Assembly (NCBI GenBank): GCA_022825235.1
Contig: JAJDYI010000066.1
Span: forward strand, 62,001 to 126,000
From: Alphaproteobacteria bacterium
GTDB taxonomy: Bacteria > Pseudomonadota > Alphaproteobacteria > TMED109
Reading direction: 5' to 3'
Length of the DNA stretch: 64,000 bases
The first letter of the stretch is position 1; each line of letters starts with the position of its first letter. A program made the position numbers and the translations under genes. This document shows, one piece after another, positions 25,535-36,988 of the stretch. The notes beneath the pieces were generated by a model. The model made no database searches. It was not told where the DNA came from and saw nothing but the letters and a program-made list of their open reading frames with translations.

Positions 25535-27190
25535 ATGAGCGAGACGTCCGCGCCGCCCCCCGAACGCGAAGCCATGGAGTTCGACGTGGTGATCGTGGGC
25601 GCCGGGCCCGCCGGCCTGGCGGCCGCCATCCGGCTTCGCCAGCTGGCCGATGAAACCGGCCAGGACATCTCGGTCTGCATCGTGGAAAAGGGCCCCGAGG
25701 TCGGCGCCCACACGCTATCGGGAGCCATCCTCGACCCGCGCGGTCTCAATGAACTGATTCCTGACTGGCGGACGCTCGACACGCCGGTGCAGACGCCGGT
25801 CCGGGAGGAGCGCCTGCTCTTCCTCGGCGCGAAGCGCAGCTTCGCCTGGCCGCACGCCCTGCTGCCGCCCGCCATGCGGAACGAGGGCAACTACATCATC
25901 AGTCTCGGCAACCTCTGCCGCTGGCTGGCCGGCCGGGCCGAGGACCTGGGCGCCGCGGTCTTTCCCGGCTTTGCGGCGACCGAGCTGCTCATGGACGGCG
26001 AACGGGTAGCGGGCGTGGCGACGGGTGACATGGGACTGTCCGAGGACGGCGCACGGGGCCCTGCGTGGCAGCCGGGGGTCGAGCTTCGGGCCACCTTCAC
26101 GCTACTGGCGGAGGGCTGCCGCGGGAGCCTCGGCAAGCAGGCGATAAGCCGGTTCGACCTCGATCGGGACAGTGAACACCAGACCTACGGACTCGGCCTC
26201 AAGGAGCTGTGGGAAGTTGCGCCCGAGCGTCACCAGCCGGGCCTCGTCCTCCACAGTGCCGGCTGGCCGTTACCCGCCGACACCTACGGCGGGGCGTTCC
26301 TCTACCACCTGGAGGACCGCCAAGTGGCCGTCGGCTTCGTGGTCGGGCTCGACTATCCGAATCCGCACCTCAGCCCGTTCGGCGAGTTCCAGCGGTTCAA
26401 GACCCATCCCGCGATCCGGCCGACGTTCGAGGGCGGCCGGCGCATCGCGTACGGCGCCCGCGCCCTCAACGAGGGCGGGCCGCAGAGCCTGCCCCGGCTG
26501 GTGTTTCCGGGCGGCGCGCTCCTGGGTTGCGATGCGGGCACCCTGAACGTTCCCCGCCTCAAGGGGACGCATACCGCCATCAAGTCGGGCGCGTGCGCCG
26601 CCGAGGCGGTCGCCCGGGCCCTGGCCGACGGTGCCGCCGAGTGCAATGCCTACGACGCCGAGTTCCGGGCGTCCTGGGCGTACCGCGAGCTGCTGCAGGG
26701 CCGGAACGTGCGCCCGGGATTTCGCTACGGGCGATTCTGGGGGACGGTCCATGCCGGCATCGACCAGATCCTGCTCCGCGGCCGGGCGCCGTGGACCCTC
26801 CGCCACGGCGAGCCCGACCACGCCAGTCTCGACGATGCTGCCGCGGCGCCACCGATCACCTATCCGAAGCCCGACGGCGAGACCACGTTCGATCGCCTGA
26901 CCAACGTGGCGTTTTCCGGAACCAACCACGAGGAAGGTCAGCCGTGCCATCTGCAGCTGGCCGATGCAGAGGTTCCGCTGAACGTGAACCTCGCCCGTTA
27001 CGACGGGCCGGAGCAGCGGTACTGCCCGGCGGGCGTCTACGAGTTCGTGGTCGAGGAGGGCGCGCAACGGCTCCGGATCAACGCGCCCAACTGCCTGCAC
27101 TGCAAGGCCTGCGACATCAAGGATCCGACTCAGAACATCACCTGGGTTCCGCCACAGGGTGGCGAGGGTCCCCGCTACCCCAACATGTGA
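25535..27190 (+). CDS. Electron transfer flavoprotein-ubiquinone oxidoreductase
   Basis: ETF-QO of 551 residues, a membrane-associated flavoprotein carrying electrons from ETF (fed by acyl-CoA, dimethylglycine and sarcosine dehydrogenases) to ubiquinone. The FAD-binding GAGPAGLAAAIRL lies near the N-terminus (about 22-34), followed by GAHTLSGAILDPRGL. The C-terminus has the [4Fe-4S] cysteines: YCPAGVYEF and NCLHCKACDIKDP, then TQNITWVPPQGG. The ATG at 25535 is followed by MSETSAPPPE. ETF subunit genes are not in the window. The GTG of the next gene overlaps its stop. Confidence 0.95.
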   Translation: MSETSAPPPEREAMEFDVVIVGAGPAGLAAAIRLRQLADETGQDISVCIVEKGPEVGAHTLSGAILDPRGLNELIPDWRTLDTPVQTPVREERLLFLGAKRSFAWPHALLPPAMRNEGNYIISLGNLCRWLAGRAEDLGAAVFPGFAATELLMDGERVAGVATGDMGLSEDGARGPAWQPGVELRATFTLLAEGCRGSLGKQAISRFDLDRDSEHQTYGLGLKELWEVAPERHQPGLVLHSAGWPLPADTYGGAFLYHLEDRQVAVGFVVGLDYPNPHLSPFGEFQRFKTHPAIRPTFEGGRRIAYGARALNEGGPQSLPRLVFPGGALLGCDAGTLNVPRLKGTHTAIKSGACAAEAVARALADGAAECNAYDAEFRASWAYRELLQGRNVRPGFRYGRFWGTVHAGIDQILLRGRAPWTLRHGEPDHASLDDAAAAPPITYPKPDGETTFDRLTNVAFSGTNHEEGQPCHLQLADAEVPLNVNLARYDGPEQRYCPAGVYEFVVEEGAQRLRINAPNCLHCKACDIKDPTQNITWVPPQGGEGPRYPNM

Positions 27191-28329
27191 AACTGCTCAT
27201 GCGCACCTTCGCTGTGTCCTTCCTGCTGGCCGGGCTCGCCCTGTCCGGTGCCGCCGACTCGGTCGCGGACGAACGCCTCGCCACCATCCGCCTGCCCGAG
27301 GGCTTCGTCATCGAGCCGTTCGCCGAGGTACCCAACGCGCGGCAGATGGCCTGGGGCGAGCAAGGCACCCTCTTCGTCGGCACCCGCCGGGACGGACGGG
27401 TGTTCGCAGTGAACGACGACGACGGCGACGGGCGGGGCGAGCGCGTGCGCGTGATCGCCTCGGGGCTCCAGATGCCAAGCGGGGTCGCGTTCCGCGGCGG
27501 CGCCCTCTACGTCGGCGCCGTCAGCACGATTCTGCGCTTCGACGGCATCGAGGCCAGGCTGGACGACCCGCCGCCCCCCGTCATCGTCACGGACCGGCTG
27601 CCCGCCGACCAGCATCACGGCTGGAAGGTGCTGGGGTTCGGGCCGGACGGCTACCTCTACGCCCCGGTCGGCGCGCCCTGCAACGTCTGCCGGGTCGACG
27701 GCTACTACGGCAGCGTGCTCCGGATGCGCCCCGACGGCTCCGAGATCGAGGTCTACGCGCGGGGGGTCCGCAACTCGGTCGGGCTCGCATGGCATCCGGT
27801 CACCGGCGAGCTCTGGTTCACCGACAACGGCCGCGACCATCTGGGCGACGACCTCCCGCCCTGCGAACTGAACCTGGCCGTCGGACCGGGGCGCCACTAC
27901 GGGTATCCGTTCTGTCACGCCGGCACGCTCCGGGATCCCAACCTGGGGGGCGACGGGGAATGCGCCGACACGGAGCCGCCTGCGCAGGCCCTGGGCCCTC
28001 ACGTGGCGCCGCTCGGCCTGGCTATTCATTCAGGCACCGGGGTGCCTGCCGGCTACCGCGGCGCAGTGTTCATTGCCGAGCACGGGTCCTGGAACCGGAC
28101 CCGGAAGATCGGCTACCGGATCACCGTCGTCCGACTCGCCGACGATCACCGGACCGCGCTGGGCTACGAAACGTTCGCCGACGGATGGCTCAGGAATGAG
28201 CGCGCCTGGGGACGGCCGGCCGATGTGCTGGAAGCGCCGGACGGCTCCCTCATGATTGCCGACGACCGGGCCGGCATGATCTATCGAATCCGCTATGTCG
28301 GCGAAAGATCCGACGCCGGCGGCGGCTGA
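27187..28329 (+). CDS. PQQ-dependent sugar dehydrogenase/sorbosone dehydrogenase-family protein
   Basis: Exported beta-propeller protein of 380 residues from GTG 27187 (ATG 27199 is an alternative). A signal peptide is visible (FAVSFLLAGLALSGAADS). The mature part begins LPEGFVIEPFAEVPNARQMAW and contains DQHHGWKVLGFGPDGYLY, VRNSVGLAWHPVTGELWFTDN and IAEHGSWNRT, the pattern of soluble aldose dehydrogenases of the YliI/sorbosone dehydrogenase type, which use PQQ in the periplasm. A cysteine pair (CNVC) and two later cysteines could form disulfides. The cofactor is inferred from the family; PQQ synthesis genes are not in the window. GTGA overlap with ETF-QO implies co-translation. Confidence 0.85.
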   Translation: MKLLMRTFAVSFLLAGLALSGAADSVADERLATIRLPEGFVIEPFAEVPNARQMAWGEQGTLFVGTRRDGRVFAVNDDDGDGRGERVRVIASGLQMPSGVAFRGGALYVGAVSTILRFDGIEARLDDPPPPVIVTDRLPADQHHGWKVLGFGPDGYLYAPVGAPCNVCRVDGYYGSVLRMRPDGSEIEVYARGVRNSVGLAWHPVTGELWFTDNGRDHLGDDLPPCELNLAVGPGRHYGYPFCHAGTLRDPNLGGDGECADTEPPAQALGPHVAPLGLAIHSGTGVPAGYRGAVFIAEHGSWNRTRKIGYRITVVRLADDHRTALGYETFADGWLRNERAWGRPADVLEAPDGSLMIADDRAGMIYRIRYVGERSDAGGG

Positions 28330-28335
28330 GAGCGG

Positions 28336-31095
28336 CTACTCGCTTTCGACCCGCGTGCCGTCGGGATAGGTCGTCACGGTCCGGCCTTGCGCCGCACCGT
28401 CCGCGAAGGTCGCTTCCAGCTTCACGCCGTTCGCGTAGGTCAGGATCCCGGGACCGTGGAAGGTGCCGTTTGCGAAGCTGCCTTCGTACCGGGTGCCGTC
28501 CGGGTACACAAGGACGCCCTGTCCGGTCTGCTGGCCGCCCGAGATCGCGCCCTCGTACCGGGTACCGTCCGCGTAGAGGACCGTCGCTGACCCCTCGCGG
28601 CGCTCGCCGTTCTCGTACCTCCCGCTAAACCGGCTTCCGTTGGGGTGCGCATACGTGCCCTCGCCGTGGAACCGGTTGTTCAGGAAGGCGCCTTCGTAGG
28701 TAGCGCCATCGGCAAACCGGTAGACGCCCTGCCCCTCGCGGCGCCCGTCGACGAAGTCGCCCTCGTAGGCCGTCCCGTCGGCGAACCGGAACACGCCCTG
28801 CCCTTCGCGCCGGCCATCGACAAACGGGCCTTCATAGGTCGCGCCGTCGGATAGCGTCAGCTTGCCGACCCCGGACATGGTGCCTGCGACGAAGTCCCCC
28901 TCGTAGGCGCCGCCGACGGCGAACGTCAGCGTGCCCCGACCGGTCATCGCGTTGTCCAGGAACGCGCCGACGTAGACGTTGCCGTTGGCGAACGTCAGCG
29001 TGCCCGCACCCTGCCGGCGGCCGTTCTCGTACGTCCCCGAGTACGTCTCGACGTCGGGGTGCCTGTACGTTCCCTCGCCGTGGAACTGGTTGTCGCGGAA
29101 CCCGCCCTCGTACGTCCTGCCGTCGGCAAACCGGTACACGCCGGAACCCGTGCGCTGCCCGGCCACGAAGTCCCCCTCGTAGACGTCGCCGCTCTGAAAC
29201 GCCAGGGTGCCGGTGCCCGCCGGCTGGCCGTCCACGAAACCGCCTTCGTACCGGCTTCCGTCCGAGTACACCATCGCCCCGGTTCCGCTGCGGCGCTCCC
29301 CGCGTTCGTAGGTGCCGCTGAAACTGCCGCCATCCGGGTGCGTGTACGTGCCCTCGCCGTGAAACTGGTCCGCCTCAAACGCGCCTTCGTACCGCGCTCC
29401 GTCCGCGAACTCCAGCACGCCGCGGCCCGACCAGGCGCCGTCCCGGAAGTCCCCCTCGTAGCGCAGGCCGTCCGCTGTGCGGAGCACACCGCGGCCTTCC
29501 CGCCTGCCCGCAGCGAAGTCGCCCTCGTAGACATCGCCGTTTACGAACCGGAATGCCCCCTGGCCGTCGGGCAGGCCGTCCGCGAAATTGCCCTCGTAGA
29601 TGTCGCCGTTCGCGTAGTTGAGCGTTCCGGTGCCATGCATGACGCCGCCCCGGATCTCGCCCGTGGAACGGCTCCCGTCGACATACACCAGCGTCCCCGA
29701 ACCCTGCACCAGCGTGCCGTTCTCGTAACTTCCGGTGTACGCGCTCCCGTTCGTGTGCGTGTACGTGCCCTCACCGTGAAACTGGTTGTCCACGAAGGCG
29801 CCTTCGTAGGTCGCGCCGTCGGCAAACCGGAACACGCCCTGCCCCTCGCGGCGCCCGTCGACGAACTCACCTTGGTAGGTGCCGCCGTCGGCGAACGTCA
29901 GTGTGCCGGCACCCGCCATGACGCCGGCGGCAAACGTACCGGCGTAAACATTGCCGTCGGCGAACGTCAGCGTGCCAGTGCCGTGCCGCTGGCCGTTCTC
30001 GTACGCGCCTGAGTAGGTGACGCCGCCAGGCTCCGCGTACGTTCCCTCGCCGTGGAACTGGTTGCCGCGGAACCCGCCCTCGTACGTCCTGCCGTCGGCA
30101 AACCGCTGCACCCCCCGGCCCTCCCGGCTGCCCGCCACGAAGTCACCCTCGTACATGTCGCCGCCCTGGAACGTGAGCTTGCCGACCCCCTCTGGCTGGC
30201 CCGACACAAACGGTCCCTCGTACACGTCGCCGCGGGCAAACGTGAGCGTGCCGGCGCCGGTTCGCTGGCCGGCCACGAACTCCCCCTCATAGACGTCGCC
30301 GCTCTGGAACGTGAGCTTGCCAACCCCCGTCGGCTGGCCGGCCACGAACGGTCCCTCGTACACATCGCCGCGCTGGTACGTCAGCCTCCCTTCGCCCGCC
30401 GGCTGACCGTCCACGAACTCCCCCTCATAGACGTCGCCGCCCTGGAACGTGAGCTTGCCGACGCCGGCCCACTGACCATCCACGAACTCACCTTCGTAGA
30501 GGCTCCCGTCCGCGTACACCCGTGTCCCCGAGCCGCTGCGGCGCTCGCCGCGTTCGTAGGTGCCGCTGAAGCTGCTGCCGTCCGGGTGCGTGTACGTTCC
30601 CTCGCCGTGGAACTGATCCGCCTCGAACGCCCCCTCGTACCGCGTCCCGTCCGCGAACTCCAGCACGCCCTGACCCGAGCGCGCGCCCGCCTGGAACTCG
30701 CCCTCGTAGCGGGAGCCGTCGGCAAATCGGAAAACCCCTCGGCCATCGGGCCGGCCGGCCGCAAAGCCGCCCTCGTACACGTCGCCGTTGGCGTACGCGA
30801 GCGAGCCGCTGCCGGACATCTCGCCGTCGACGAACGTGCCCGCGTATTCGTTGCCGTTCGCGAACGTGAGCGTTCCCGAGCCATGCATGACGCCGCCGCG
30901 GATCTCGCCGACGTAATGGCTCCCGTCCGCAAAGCGCATCTCGCCCTGCCGCTCGGCGTCGGGAACCGGCGCCGGGCCCGGCGGGGCGGGCGCCTCGACG
31001 TCCTCGTTCGCTTCCTGCGCCTGCGCCGGCAAGGCGCTCCCCGCTCCGAAGAGCGCGAGCAGGGCGCCAACGATGTGTGCAGCGAGCGGCGGCAT
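28336..31095 (-). CDS. Giant exported MORN-repeat protein
   Basis: A 919-residue protein starting at ATG 31095 with a signal peptide (residues 1 to about 26, ending PAQAQ), a short acidic/proline linker to about residue 50, then about 37 tandem MORN units of some 23 residues to the C-terminus. The unit reads G-x-G-x-(L/F)-x-(F/Y)-A-(D/N)-G-x-x-Y-E-G-x-F, for example FADGSRYEGEF. No catalytic domain is attached, unlike the usual MORN kinases or phosphatases. Six units carry a variant FHGEGTY module, spaced several units apart. Periplasmic or surface location follows from the signal peptide. MORN repeats form extended beta-hairpin arrays that bind lipids or proteins in known cases; the role here is unknown. 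It lies 44 bases downstream of lpxC on the same strand. Confidence 0.85.
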   Translation of the reverse strand: MPPLAAHIVGALLALFGAGSALPAQAQEANEDVEAPAPPGPAPVPDAERQGEMRFADGSHYVGEIRGGVMHGSGTLTFANGNEYAGTFVDGEMSGSGSLAYANGDVYEGGFAAGRPDGRGVFRFADGSRYEGEFQAGARSGQGVLEFADGTRYEGAFEADQFHGEGTYTHPDGSSFSGTYERGERRSGSGTRVYADGSLYEGEFVDGQWAGVGKLTFQGGDVYEGEFVDGQPAGEGRLTYQRGDVYEGPFVAGQPTGVGKLTFQSGDVYEGEFVAGQRTGAGTLTFARGDVYEGPFVSGQPEGVGKLTFQGGDMYEGDFVAGSREGRGVQRFADGRTYEGGFRGNQFHGEGTYAEPGGVTYSGAYENGQRHGTGTLTFADGNVYAGTFAAGVMAGAGTLTFADGGTYQGEFVDGRREGQGVFRFADGATYEGAFVDNQFHGEGTYTHTNGSAYTGSYENGTLVQGSGTLVYVDGSRSTGEIRGGVMHGTGTLNYANGDIYEGNFADGLPDGQGAFRFVNGDVYEGDFAAGRREGRGVLRTADGLRYEGDFRDGAWSGRGVLEFADGARYEGAFEADQFHGEGTYTHPDGGSFSGTYERGERRSGTGAMVYSDGSRYEGGFVDGQPAGTGTLAFQSGDVYEGDFVAGQRTGSGVYRFADGRTYEGGFRDNQFHGEGTYRHPDVETYSGTYENGRRQGAGTLTFANGNVYVGAFLDNAMTGRGTLTFAVGGAYEGDFVAGTMSGVGKLTLSDGATYEGPFVDGRREGQGVFRFADGTAYEGDFVDGRREGQGVYRFADGATYEGAFLNNRFHGEGTYAHPNGSRFSGRYENGERREGSATVLYADGTRYEGAISGGQQTGQGVLVYPDGTRYEGSFANGTFHGPGILTYANGVKLEATFADGAAQGRTVTTYPDGTRVESE

Positions 31096-31139
31096 GCGGC
31101 GGAGTGTAGCCGATGCGGGAAGCCTTCCGGGCGGCTGCG

Positions 31140-32072
31140 TCAGGCGACCGCGATCCGGGTCTCGGCCTGGGCCCAGGTCCCGGAGGCCGGCGGGCACGTG
31201 CTCCGTTCCCAGTTGGCGGGTTCGGAGAAAATCTCGGTCAGGAGCCGGCGATTCATCTCGTGCCCGCCCCGCACGAAGGTCACCCGGCCAAGCAGAGGTG
31301 CCCCCGCGAGATAGAGGTCGCCTACGCAATCGAGCACCTTGTGCCGAATGAACTCGTCGGGGTAGCGAAGCCCGCCCCTCGCGTCGACGCGCATGCCGTC
31401 GACCTGGATCACGTTCCCCGGGTTCCCGCCAAGCCCGAGTCCCTGGCTGAGCAGGGTCTCCGCATCCTCGGGCGTGCAGAAGGTGCGGGCCGGGGCGAGC
31501 TCGTCCCTGAACCGGGATCCCTCGAGAGTGAACTCGTAACTCTGCCGGCCGATTGCCGTGCCCGGGTAATCGATGGTGCCGCAAACCACGAACGCTTCGG
31601 CGGGCTCCATCCGTACGGAGCCCGCACCGTTGTCCACGCGCACCGGCCGGCGAACCCGGATCCAGGATCTCAGGCGGTCCTGTGCCACCACGCCGGCCTC
31701 CTCAAGCGGGCCCACGAGACCGGCGGCCGATCCGTCCAAGATCGGAACTTCGCGCCCGTTGAGCTCCACCCGGGCATTGTCGATGCCCAGCCCGGCGAAC
31801 GTGGCCAGCAGATGCTCGACGGTCCAGATCGATACGCCGTTGCCTGCGCCGAGCATCATCGTCCGGCGCCTGGCGTCGGTGACCCGCCCCCACTGTGCGG
31901 GAACTTCCGGCGACCCGGGCAGATCCGTCCGCACCAGGACGATACCGGTACCGGCGGCCGCGGGATGGATCGTCATCGCCACCGGTTCACCGGTGAACAG
32001 CCCCAGGTCACGGTACGTAACGGGCCTGGCAACGGTGTGCTCAAGTGCGCGCATCGGCGATCCCGGCGACAT
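31140..32072 (-). CDS. lpxC: UDP-3-O-acyl-N-acetylglucosamine deacetylase LpxC
   Basis: Zinc deacetylase catalysing the committed step of lipid A synthesis. From ATG 32072 it has 310 residues; the ATG at 32054 is an alternative. Zinc ligands are intact: His87 in WTVEHLLATFAG, and His and Asp near 244 and 248 in FIRHKVLDCVGDLY. Other blocks are LNGREVPILDGSAA and ARTFCTPEDAE. The C-terminal GHEMNRRLLTEIF follows. In many alphaproteobacteria lpxC precedes bamD-recN-ligA; here a MORN-repeat gene follows instead, and bamD lies elsewhere in the window. A palindrome lies 143 bases upstream. Confidence 0.95.
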   Translation of the reverse strand: MSPGSPMRALEHTVARPVTYRDLGLFTGEPVAMTIHPAAAGTGIVLVRTDLPGSPEVPAQWGRVTDARRRTMMLGAGNGVSIWTVEHLLATFAGLGIDNARVELNGREVPILDGSAAGLVGPLEEAGVVAQDRLRSWIRVRRPVRVDNGAGSVRMEPAEAFVVCGTIDYPGTAIGRQSYEFTLEGSRFRDELAPARTFCTPEDAETLLSQGLGLGGNPGNVIQVDGMRVDARGGLRYPDEFIRHKVLDCVGDLYLAGAPLLGRVTFVRGGHEMNRRLLTEIFSEPANWERSTCPPASGTWAQAETRIAVA

Positions 32073-32565
32073 CAACAGTACGGGCTCCAAGCCCGAAAGC
32101 GGCGGTGCCGTGCCTGGCCGGGGAGCGCCGCATCCCGCAGGCGAGGCGGTTCCACGGACGCCAGACGCGACGCAGCCGGAGCCAATGTATCGTCGGGGCG
32201 CCAGGTCGGCCAATCAACAATCATTTCAATTGTTGCAGTGCCGTGAACACCCGGTTGTACCAATCAGAGCAAGAGGGAGTGGGCGTCGGTGCGGCCGCGC
32301 GGTCCGAACCGGAAGCTGGGCACCCGTCCCATCGCCGCATCCGGCAGCCGCTGGCCGCCGGGTGCCCGCCCGCAGGACTGGCCGCAGCATACCGGCACGG
32401 GCCTGCGGGGCTCGCCCGTGGGGTGCCATCCCGCCGTGGAGTCGGTAGAACACGCATCTGCGGCGGCCCCGCCGGACCGCCGCCTGCCGCAGCCATGCAT
32501 CGGCCCGGCGATGGCCGGGCACACGCCGGCCCAGGCCCGCAAGTGCACCTCCGCAGGGGATACCC
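32073..32565. other. Divergent intergenic region between lpxC and the esterase gene
   Basis: About 490 bases, GC-rich except for an AT-rich stretch near 32211-32240. Must carry promoters for both divergent genes. Apart from the palindrome annotated separately, nothing is recognised. Confidence 0.5.
32215..32235. promoter_or_regulatory. Palindromic operator candidate upstream of lpxC
   Basis: CAACAAT (32215-32221), a seven-base spacer, then ATTGTTG (32229-32235): a perfect seven-base inverted repeat within a locally AT-rich patch in an otherwise GC-rich gap. The size fits a dimeric repressor site. The regulator is not identified. Confidence 0.35.
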
Positions 32566-33667: not shown

Positions 33668-34324
33668 TTGAGCGATCTGCTGCGCGAGATCGATGAGGAT
33701 CTTCGCATTGAACGGTTGCGTCGTCTCGGACGCCGCTACGGTCCCGCGGGGGCAGGTGCCGCCGGGCTTGTCGCCCTCGCTATCGGCGGATGGTTTCTGT
33801 GGCAAAACCATCTCGAGGAGCGGCGGGCTGAAGATGCGGACCGCTACGCGGCCGCGATCGCGGCTCTCGAGGACGGCAACACCGGACTGGGCATCTCCGA
33901 TCTCGCCAACCTGACCCGTGAAGCCGAGCCGGGGTATGCGTTGCTTGCCAAGCTCTCGGAGGCGGCCGCTCTCACCGCCACCGGCGATCGGGCCGCGGCC
34001 ATCAGTCTCTACGACACCATCGCGCGAGACGACGACGCCCCGGGCCACTTCCGGGCGGTCGCTGATCTCCAAGCGGCGTTCCTCATGCTGGACCAGGGCG
34101 CCGCCGCGACCATCCGCGAACGCATCGCCTGGCTCCTGGCGGATCCGACTGGACCCTGGTACGCGCTGGCCCGCGAGGTCAACGCCCATCTCGCCTACCG
34201 GGAATCCGAGACCGAAACCGCGAAATCCGAATTCCAGGAGCTGGCCACTGACGCCAATGCACCCAACGGCGTACGTGTCCGTGCGCGGCGGATGCTGCTG
34301 CTGTGGCCCGACGTGGAGGGCTAG
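33668..34324 (+). CDS. YfgM-like tetratricopeptide protein, single-pass membrane
   Basis: A 218-residue protein with one transmembrane helix (AGAAGLVALAIGGWFLWQN, about 29-47) after a basic N-terminus, and a periplasmic TPR-like domain rich in Ala/Leu helices. TTG 33668 is the start: AAGGAGA lies five bases upstream and the family N-terminus LLREIDEDLRIERL follows. The family (YfgM, UPF0070) is an ancillary factor of the SecYEG/periplasmic chaperone network in E. coli. The order yfgM-like, bamB-like, der seen here is common in proteobacteria and supports the call. Its stop touches the next start codon. Confidence 0.83.
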   Translation: MSDLLREIDEDLRIERLRRLGRRYGPAGAGAAGLVALAIGGWFLWQNHLEERRAEDADRYAAAIAALEDGNTGLGISDLANLTREAEPGYALLAKLSEAAALTATGDRAAAISLYDTIARDDDAPGHFRAVADLQAAFLMLDQGAAATIRERIAWLLADPTGPWYALAREVNAHLAYRESETETAKSEFQELATDANAPNGVRVRARRMLLLWPDVEG

Positions 34325-35626
34325 ATGCACGTCGTCGCCCTCGCGCTCGCGGCACTGGTTCTCGCCGGATGCACCTCCTGGTTCGGGGCCGACGACGATC
34401 CGCCGCTGCCCGGCGAGCGGGTCTCGATCCTGGCTCTCGAGGAGCGCCTGGCCCCGGCTGACCCCTCCGACGACCCCGTCATCCTCACGGAGCCCGTGGC
34501 AGCGGCCTGGCCGCAGCAGGACGCGAACGCTGACAACCGGCCGCCCCACGCGGCGTACTCGGGGGCTCTCGCCGTCGCCTGGAACCTTAGTGTCGGCAGC
34601 GCCGACTCCCGGACCTCGCGCATGCTGGGCCAGCCCGTTGTCGGCGACGGCCGCCTTTATTTCCTTGACGCCGACGGCCGGGTGTTCGCGCTGTCGCTGG
34701 AAAACCGCCGAACGGCCTGGTCCCGGTCCATCCGACCCCAGGGAGAGGACGGCGGACGCGGTGTCGGCGGCGGCGTGGCGCTCGACGGCGGGACCCTGTT
34801 CGTGACCACGGCGTACGGTGACTTGCTGGCGCTCGACGCCGCGACCGGAGATGTGCAGTGGCAGCGCGGTTACGGCATTCCGTTTCGCGCGGCGCCGACC
34901 GTGCAGGGTGCGCGGGTGTACGCCGGCCTTCTGACCGATCAGACCGTGGCGCTCCAGCGGGCGGACGGCAGCGAGATCTGGCTGCACGACGGCGCCTTCA
35001 AGCAGGGGCCGTCGCTGCTGAACGCGCTGCCGGCCGCCGCAAACGACGATGTGGTGATCGCCCCGTATTCCACGGGCGAGATCGTCGCCCTTCGGGCCGA
35101 CAATGGCCGGGAGGCCTGGCGGGTACCGCTGGTGGAAGTCTTCCGGGGAGCTGCGCAGATCGAGATCGAGGATGTCGCCGGCGGCCCCGTCATCGATGCC
35201 GGCTCCGTCATTGCCGGCGGCGCCACCGGGCTGCTCGGCAGCTTTGACTTGCAGACCGGGGCGTTGCAGTGGCGCATCCCGCTGTCTGTTGCGCACACCC
35301 CGCGCGTGACTGGGGACTGGCTGTATGCCCTGACCGCAGACGGGGAAGCGGTGTGTCTGCGGCGAAGCACCGGCCACGTACGCTGGCGCACGAATCTCGC
35401 AGATGTCCTCGGAATCGACGACGACGACCTCGCGTGGTCCGGCCTCATCGTCGCCGGCGGGACCGTCATCGTCGCCGGATCCCAGCGGCTGGTGAGCCTC
35501 AGCCCCTCGGACGGCTCCGTGGTCCGCACCGTCGCCCTTCAGGGTAACCCGGCGAGCGCACCGATCGCCGCCGCCGGCACCCTGTATGTGCTGACCCGCG
35601 AGGGCGCGATCGTCTCGCTGAACTGA
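34325..35626 (+). CDS. bamB: BamB-like outer-membrane assembly lipoprotein (beta-propeller)
   Basis: Lipoprotein of 433 residues with signal ending LAGC (Cys16). The rest is a PQQ-binding-like beta-propeller: repeated strands with the ending A-x-D-x-x-T-G-x-x-x-W, such as LYFLDADGRVFALS, LALDAATGDVQWQ, VALRADNGREAWR and SFDLQTGALQWR. BamB is the scaffold of the BAM complex at the outer membrane. The symbol is by synteny and fold, with der immediately downstream as in E. coli. The ATG follows the previous TAG with no gap. Confidence 0.87.
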   Translation: MHVVALALAALVLAGCTSWFGADDDPPLPGERVSILALEERLAPADPSDDPVILTEPVAAAWPQQDANADNRPPHAAYSGALAVAWNLSVGSADSRTSRMLGQPVVGDGRLYFLDADGRVFALSLENRRTAWSRSIRPQGEDGGRGVGGGVALDGGTLFVTTAYGDLLALDAATGDVQWQRGYGIPFRAAPTVQGARVYAGLLTDQTVALQRADGSEIWLHDGAFKQGPSLLNALPAAANDDVVIAPYSTGEIVALRADNGREAWRVPLVEVFRGAAQIEIEDVAGGPVIDAGSVIAGGATGLLGSFDLQTGALQWRIPLSVAHTPRVTGDWLYALTADGEAVCLRRSTGHVRWRTNLADVLGIDDDDLAWSGLIVAGGTVIVAGSQRLVSLSPSDGSVVRTVALQGNPASAPIAAAGTLYVLTREGAIVSLN

Positions 35627-35638
35627 GGGCGGTCGTCC

Positions 35639-36988
35639 ATGCAGTTGCGGGTGGCGATCGTCGGCCGCCCCAACGTCGGCAAGTCGACGCTGTTCAATCG
35701 CTTGGCCGGCCGGCGGGCGGCCCTCGTCGATCCGATGCCCGGCATGACGCGGGATCTCAACGTGTCGTCCGGACAGGTCGGCGCCGGGGACGTCCAGATC
35801 GTCGACACGCCTGGACTCGAAGAAGCGGATGCCGACACGCTGGCCGCCCGGATGACCAGGGCCAGCGAGCAGGCTCTTTCCGAAGCCGACCTGGTCCTGT
35901 TCATGATCGACGGCCGGGACGGCGTGACCCCGGTCGACCGGGTGTACGCACGGTTGGCCCGGGTGCATGCCCGCGACGTCGCCCTCCTAGTCAACAAGTG
36001 CGACAGCCCCGCCCTCGCCGCGCAGGCGGTCGAAGGGTTTGAGCTCGGGCTCGGCGAGCCGATTCCGATCTCCGCGGAGCATGGCCTCGGGATCGGTGAC
36101 ATCGAGGCGGTGATTGCCGCCCGACAGTCCGCGGAAGCGGCGGCCGACGCGGACGCCCCGGACCCAGCCCGGCCAGTTTCCATCGCGATCGTCGGGCGCC
36201 CGAACAGCGGCAAGTCCACGCTCACCAACCGGCTGCTGGGCGAGGAGCGGATGCTGACCGGGCCGGAACCCGGAATCACGCGTGATTCGCTTGGTCACGC
36301 CTGGACCTGGCGTGGCCGCCGGGTCGAGCTCGTCGATACCGCCGGGCTGCGGCGCAGCAGCCGGATCGACTCGCGCCCCGAGGCCGCTTCCGCCGAAGCC
36401 ACGCGGCGGGCGCTTCGCTTCGCCGAAGTGGCCGTGCTCATGCTCGACTGCAGCGAGGCCCTGGTCGACCAGGACCTGGCCATTGCCGCGGAGGTGGTAG
36501 CGGAAGGGCGCGCCCTGGTGGTCGCCGCCAACAAGTGGGACCTAATCCGGCGATCCGCTCCGGTGCGCCGGGCACTGACGCAGCGGCTTGACGAGACGTT
36601 GCCGCAGGCCCGCGGAGTTCCCTGTGTTCCGCTCTCGGCCCTGACCGGCCATGGAACCAACCGTCTCATGCAGGCAGTCTTCGCCGTCCACCGGCGATGG
36701 GCACGCCGCGTGCCCACGCCTTCCCTCAACCGCTGGCTCCGCGATCAAATTGACGCCCACCAGCCTCCCCGGGCGGGCGGGCGCGCCCAGCGCCTCCGGT
36801 TCATGACGCAGGTCAATGTCCGCCCGCCCACGTTTGCGCTGTTTGCCAACCACCCCAAGGGGTTGCCCCGGAGCTATGTCCGCTACCTCGCCAACGGTCT
36901 CCGCGACACCTTTGACCTCGACGGCGTGCCGCTGCGCATCATGGTGCGAAAGGGCGACAATCCCTACGCGGGCAGATCCACCAACTGA
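35639..36988 (+). CDS. der: Ribosome-assembly GTPase Der (EngA)
   Basis: Double-GTPase of 449 residues required for 50S ribosome biogenesis. Two G domains are visible: the first with GRPNVGKS (9-16), DTPGLEE and NKCD, the second with GRPNSGKS (about 187-194), DTAGLRR and NKWD, followed by a KH-like C-terminal domain ending PLRIMVRKGDNPY. Length and layout are normal. The ATG at 35639 follows the BamB-like stop by 12 bases. Confidence 0.97.
   Translation: MQLRVAIVGRPNVGKSTLFNRLAGRRAALVDPMPGMTRDLNVSSGQVGAGDVQIVDTPGLEEADADTLAARMTRASEQALSEADLVLFMIDGRDGVTPVDRVYARLARVHARDVALLVNKCDSPALAAQAVEGFELGLGEPIPISAEHGLGIGDIEAVIAARQSAEAAADADAPDPARPVSIAIVGRPNSGKSTLTNRLLGEERMLTGPEPGITRDSLGHAWTWRGRRVELVDTAGLRRSSRIDSRPEAASAEATRRALRFAEVAVLMLDCSEALVDQDLAIAAEVVAEGRALVVAANKWDLIRRSAPVRRALTQRLDETLPQARGVPCVPLSALTGHGTNRLMQAVFAVHRRWARRVPTPSLNRWLRDQIDAHQPPRAGGRAQRLRFMTQVNVRPPTFALFANHPKGLPRSYVRYLANGLRDTFDLDGVPLRIMVRKGDNPYAGRSTN

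Follow-up and report, generated by a model that had tools for sequence, protein, structure and literature searches.

The window analysed here is a stretch of 64,000 nucleotides from the genome of an alphaproteobacterium. On its reverse strand, at 28336..31095, lies a gene whose uninterrupted frame, from ATG to stop, specifies an exported-looking protein of 919 residues made up of MORN repeats. Immediately upstream on the same strand is lpxC, the longest open reading frame of which covers 31140..32213, with a probable start at the ATG at 32072 or 32054. Its product is recognized by PF03331 (E = 3.6e-85) and by TIGR00325, and at 236.8 bits (cut-off 187.25 bits) it is a full-length LpxC by the latter model. 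The motifs VEHLLA, HKVLDCVGD and GHE, which presumably hold the zinc and active-site residues as they do in E. coli LpxC, were seen by eye. The LpxC proteins of this genus share only 30–39% identity with those of other genera of the family, as against 53–58% for the product of the adjoining ETF-ubiquinone oxidoreductase (ETF-QO) gene.

The preliminary description placed the MORN gene directly downstream of lpxC, and the two are indeed separated by no more than 44 nt (31096..31139, reverse strand). Within this spacer the hexamer TACACT (31108–31103), 7 nt ahead of the MORN start codon, is identical in all seven members of the genus while the surrounding spacer is variable. It could be the -10 element of a leaderless promoter with no recognizable -35, and its conservation leaves room for the MORN gene having a promoter of its own, which counts against shared expression with lpxC. 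On the other side, 6 nt from the MORN stop codon, is a convergent gene for an exported-looking glucose/sorbosone dehydrogenase-like (GSDH) protein (27199..28329, forward strand), which is the neighbour in genus g4 as well, followed by the ETF-QO gene (25535..27190, forward strand), whose place beside lpxC or the lpxC-MORN pair is kept throughout the order. Also near lpxC, at 33668–36988, are genes for a TPR_21 protein, a BamB-like protein and Der. Close to the MORN gene of genus g5 is one for a lipoprotein, read by eye as bamD.

The N-terminus of the 919-residue protein, MPPLAAHIVGALLALFGAGSALPAQA/QEAN, resembles a signal peptide. The predicted peptide occupies residues 1–26 (31018..31095, reverse strand), the cleavage site (LPAQA/QEAN) having been placed by eye, and includes a hydrophobic stretch at residues 8–18 with a mean KD of 2.50. 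The assignment was made heuristically rather than with SignalP. By the same heuristic all 13 MORN genes tested specify an N-terminus with a hydrophobic stretch and possible cleavage sites, so the export claimed in the preliminary description stands as a prediction that extends to the orthologues; in the window's genus no Lys or Arg precedes the hydrophobic stretch. A Pro/Ala-rich linker and an entry strand follow (residues 27–60; 30916..31017, reverse strand), modelled with low confidence to about residue 48.

The remainder of the protein, residues 61–919, is a tandem array of units of the YxGxF...GxG type, which identifies it as a MORN-repeat protein; PF02493 matches the array with E = 4.1e-181. 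A hand count gives 37 units, 34 of 23 amino acids (the final one clipped by the C-terminus) and three of 24, and an HMM made from the protein's own units likewise finds 37 stretches. The figure of about 37 repeats given in the preliminary description is thus correct, as is its remark on the lack of a catalytic domain: the Pfam search credits no domain besides MORN. Weak Pfam rows for BsuPI and PATR were rejected, no single stretch passing by itself. No NCBIfam model matches the whole protein, and the PADLOC models for anti-phage defence gave no match to it. The mature protein is strongly acidic, with a net charge of -57 and a pI of 4.6; the 9-unit forms described below carry net charges of -4 to -12.

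Orthologues of three sizes are found. Those of genera g2 and g5 have nine units (249–257 aa; one unit region is unreadable in G007), those of four species of the window's genus have 18 (479 aa), and those of three species of that genus, the window's included, have 37 (917–919 aa). Aligned unit by unit, units 19–37 of the window protein (residues 477–919; 28339..29667, reverse strand) are collinear with the whole 18-unit array of the 479-aa form, the score of 182 comparing with a maximum of 88 among 300 shuffles of unit order. Units 1–18 (residues 61–476; 29668..30915, reverse strand) map onto the same array, units 7–11 being an expanded run, and unit 1 restarts at residue 477. Since both halves map to the ancestral array, the giant size, on the evidence of unit order, came about by duplication in tandem of the entire 18-unit array. 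The 9-unit arrays match the 18- and 37-unit arrays no better than shuffled ones by unit order, and their orthology rests on synteny, with genus g4 as the bridge. Between the 479-aa and long forms, conservation is highest in the last three units (20–21 of 23 residues).

The dN/dS values of the MORN gene are 0.14–0.16 among the long forms and 0.05–0.09 among the short ones, the latter close to the 0.05–0.08 obtained for lpxC. Judged by these ratios the gene is under purifying selection, the long form being held a little less tightly; and because three species keep a product of 917–919 aa at a dN/dS of 0.14–0.16, the frame is, by the same measure, not a chance open reading frame. Array length is constant within each subclade (917–919 aa in the three species with the long form, 479 aa in the other four), as would be expected if length matters.

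Structure prediction, which had been proposed for the array, yields a MORN beta ribbon. The AlphaFold2 model of the 479-aa orthologue (mean pLDDT 87.9; 360 residues at 90 or above) consists of predicted beta hairpins in a single continuous run, and that of the 919-aa protein shows the same elements with lower confidence (mean pLDDT 78.4, pTM 0.36). The best structural matches of the shorter model are the MORN1 proteins of Trypanosoma brucei (6t4r, 6t68), Toxoplasma gondii (6t69, 6t6q) and Plasmodium falciparum (6t4d), with Z scores of 18–21 and, for most chains, TM scores normalized by target of 0.86–0.90. The fold is therefore predicted to be an ordinary MORN ribbon of antiparallel beta hairpins. 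The likeness to MORN1 includes units of 23 amino acids, a twisted beta ribbon (predicted here), acidity and a conserved C-terminal end; MORN1, however, is a protist cytoskeletal protein with about 15 units in T. brucei, whereas the window protein is bacterial, predicted to be exported, and has 37. The MORN1 proteins form tail-to-tail dimers via their C-termini and possess an aromatic groove able to take protein partners, and the corresponding groove of MORN4 binds myosin 3a (PMC7725318).

To see how far the pair extends, MORN and LpxC searches were compared by position in 28 species of the order, which represent one family and eight genera. In 13 genomes from three genera, ranging in G+C content from 27 to 69%, lpxC has next to it, on the same contig and strand, the gene of an exported pure MORN protein. 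These are all seven genomes of the window's genus together with G007, G010, G014, G020, G023 and G025; the paired genes of the AT-rich genera are 7–16 nt apart, against 44 nt in the window. In G009, which belongs to a fourth genus, the two genes are on different contigs, lpxC near an end of the one and a pure MORN gene at the end of the other. Since the latter gene converges on the GSDH-like and ETF-QO genes that face its counterpart in the window, this genome very likely has the pair as well. In genera g3, g6 and g8, which make up a sister clade, no MORN gene lies between lpxC and ETF-QO, which face each other directly, and lpxC follows ftsZ wherever the contig permits checking. These three genera form one clade of the LpxC tree (support 100/100), a tree which is unsure beyond that clade owing to long branches and uneven composition. 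Because the genera lacking the pair form a single clade, one gain or one loss would suffice to explain its distribution.

Conservation across the Alphaproteobacteria at large, which the preliminary description had raised, is another matter: the pair is found well beyond a single genome, but adjacency was seen in none of 40 sampled Alphaproteobacteria outside the order that have both MORN-array and LpxC hits, a sample in which many have the two genes on different draft contigs, so that a few linkages at contig ends could escape. The nearest MORN arrays to lpxC among them are about 49–55 kb away. On this sampling the pair is an old one, conserved in one order. LpxK was found in 23 of the 28 genomes of the order, which, going by gene content, makes lipid A, the clade without the pair included; lipid A synthesis in general thus does not depend on the MORN protein.

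In the genomes G007, G010, G014 and G020, of the genera with the 9-unit form (loci L078, L081, L083 and L087), ftsZ is gone from the interval between ftsA and lpxC and lies about 16 kb off on the same contig, while the MORN-less genera keep ftsZ next to lpxC. In the window's genus it is lpxC that lies away from the ftsA/ftsZ neighbourhood, with the MORN gene retained beside it. The ETF-QO gene has been beside lpxC for as long as the MORN gene has; its function is unrelated, and we know of no envelope role for it. Its equally long retention makes conserved gene order weaker evidence of shared function, and the case for a functional link between lpxC and the MORN gene would then be that they lie on one strand, a short distance apart.

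The MORN gene might accordingly be a passenger, a repeat gene that came to stand behind the ancestral lpxC, stayed there along with ETF-QO for want of rearrangement, and has a function unrelated to lpxC. The sufficiency of one gain or loss, the similar persistence of ETF-QO and the absence of the pair from the genomes sampled outside the order would all agree with this. We nevertheless consider it unlikely, given that the MORN gene is codirectional with lpxC at gaps of 7–16 nt in the AT-rich genera and that lpxC of the window's genus left ftsA and ftsZ yet kept the MORN gene.

The explanation that we favour, to which we give about an even chance of being right, is that the exported, non-catalytic MORN ribbon is a structural element of the cell envelope, able to join with itself or with other proteins there, and is co-expressed with lpxC. 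The ribbon would sit in the periplasm or at the outer membrane, and would bind itself, envelope proteins or both through its aromatic groove and conserved C-terminal cap. Co-transcription with lpxC would supply it in step with the growth of the envelope. As a partner, an envelope-assembly protein seems a reasonable first guess, because a bamB-like gene in the window and the gene read as bamD in genus g5 are near the MORN gene. Consistent with a structural role are a pure array in every orthologue, each with a predicted export signal, the observed close and codirectional pairing, the dN/dS values, a length fixed by subclade, and a predicted fold like that of MORN1; the sequence, its repeat architecture, the purifying selection and the whole-array duplication are likewise matters of observation. 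Against it must be set the retention of ETF-QO, the TACACT element, a signal peptide without Lys or Arg and a model of the 919-aa protein that is only fair.

MORN arrays are best known from eukaryotes, and a predicted exported array of many units could also be released or displayed on the surface as a eukaryote-like repeat protein for contact with other cells. The window's genome (L093) and its relatives contain other exported-looking MORN proteins, some with trypsin-like or caspase domains, which would fit such a role. Tight pairing with a housekeeping gene of the envelope, seen in the small AT-rich genomes too, and strong purifying selection with no sign of the diversification expected at a host interface speak against it, and we regard it as slightly less probable even than a passenger gene.

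LpxC acts in the cytoplasm, across the inner membrane from the periplasm, whereas the MORN protein is predicted to leave the cytoplasm. This is one of the difficulties with the proposal, put forward in the preliminary description, of an action on the envelope by way of lipid binding. A periplasmic protein that bound LPS, lipid A or phospholipid, and by doing so had a direct effect on the transport of lipid A or the make-up of the outer membrane, would suit the conserved adjacency to lpxC in genomes that make lipid A, and phosphatidylethanolamine (PE) did co-purify with T. brucei MORN1 produced in E. coli; yet the protein is acidic (-57 in the long form, -4 to -12 in the 9-unit forms) where the ligand would be anionic, liposome tests with TbMORN1 were negative and leave membrane binding unsupported, and the authors of the MORN1 structures hold that lipid binding should not be deduced from the presence of MORN repeats (PMC7725318), so that we think this improbable and the least likely of the alternatives. 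Nothing beyond gene order links the MORN protein to lipid A; the observation in the preliminary description was sound and its interpretation over-extended.

The structural reading may be carried further. The protein could be a lineage-specific factor of envelope biogenesis, a beta ribbon of the periplasm that owes its length to expansion and whole duplication of the array (9, 18 or 37 units) and that ties the supply of lipid A to the assembly of the outer membrane or to the distance between the two membranes. This is speculative, and we rate its chances as low. Should the ribbon prove to be a periplasmic element of defined length, the Gram-negative envelope would gain a new structural kind; otherwise the protein is one further repeat protein within a stable gene neighbourhood. 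Bacterial MORN proteins are widespread and almost uncharacterized, and the conserved, codirectional and tightly spaced pairing with lpxC gives one of them a testable context. What is new here is the lineage-specific conserved pair and the duplication of the whole array, the protein itself being by its predicted fold an ordinary MORN protein.

In the library searched, no paper mentions both MORN repeats and LpxC, and at the level of titles and abstracts nothing directly relevant was seen on exported bacterial MORN proteins in connection with the periplasm, LPS, peptidoglycan or symbiosis. None of the solved structures matching by sequence has a bacterial molecule name, and PF02493 itself denotes a repeat rather than a function. 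Exported pure-MORN proteins of other Alphaproteobacteria (G049:C1, 463 aa; G028:C110, 536 aa) resemble the window protein in having a signal-peptide-like start and an array of many units, but are about half its length and are not beside lpxC. A second exported-looking MORN protein, of 532 aa and with few MORN units, is specified on contig C28 of the window's own genome (L093:4567-6165, reverse strand), and in relatives exported-looking MORN sequences are fused to a trypsin-like peptidase (PF13365) or a caspase domain (PF00656) (L094:6478-8412 and L095:5191-8523, both forward strand). Lastly, the 1.2-Mb alphaproteobacterial genome G051, in which LpxC was not found, contains 116 MORN matches and one open frame of 977 aa (several contigs, e.g. 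C33:222-2138).
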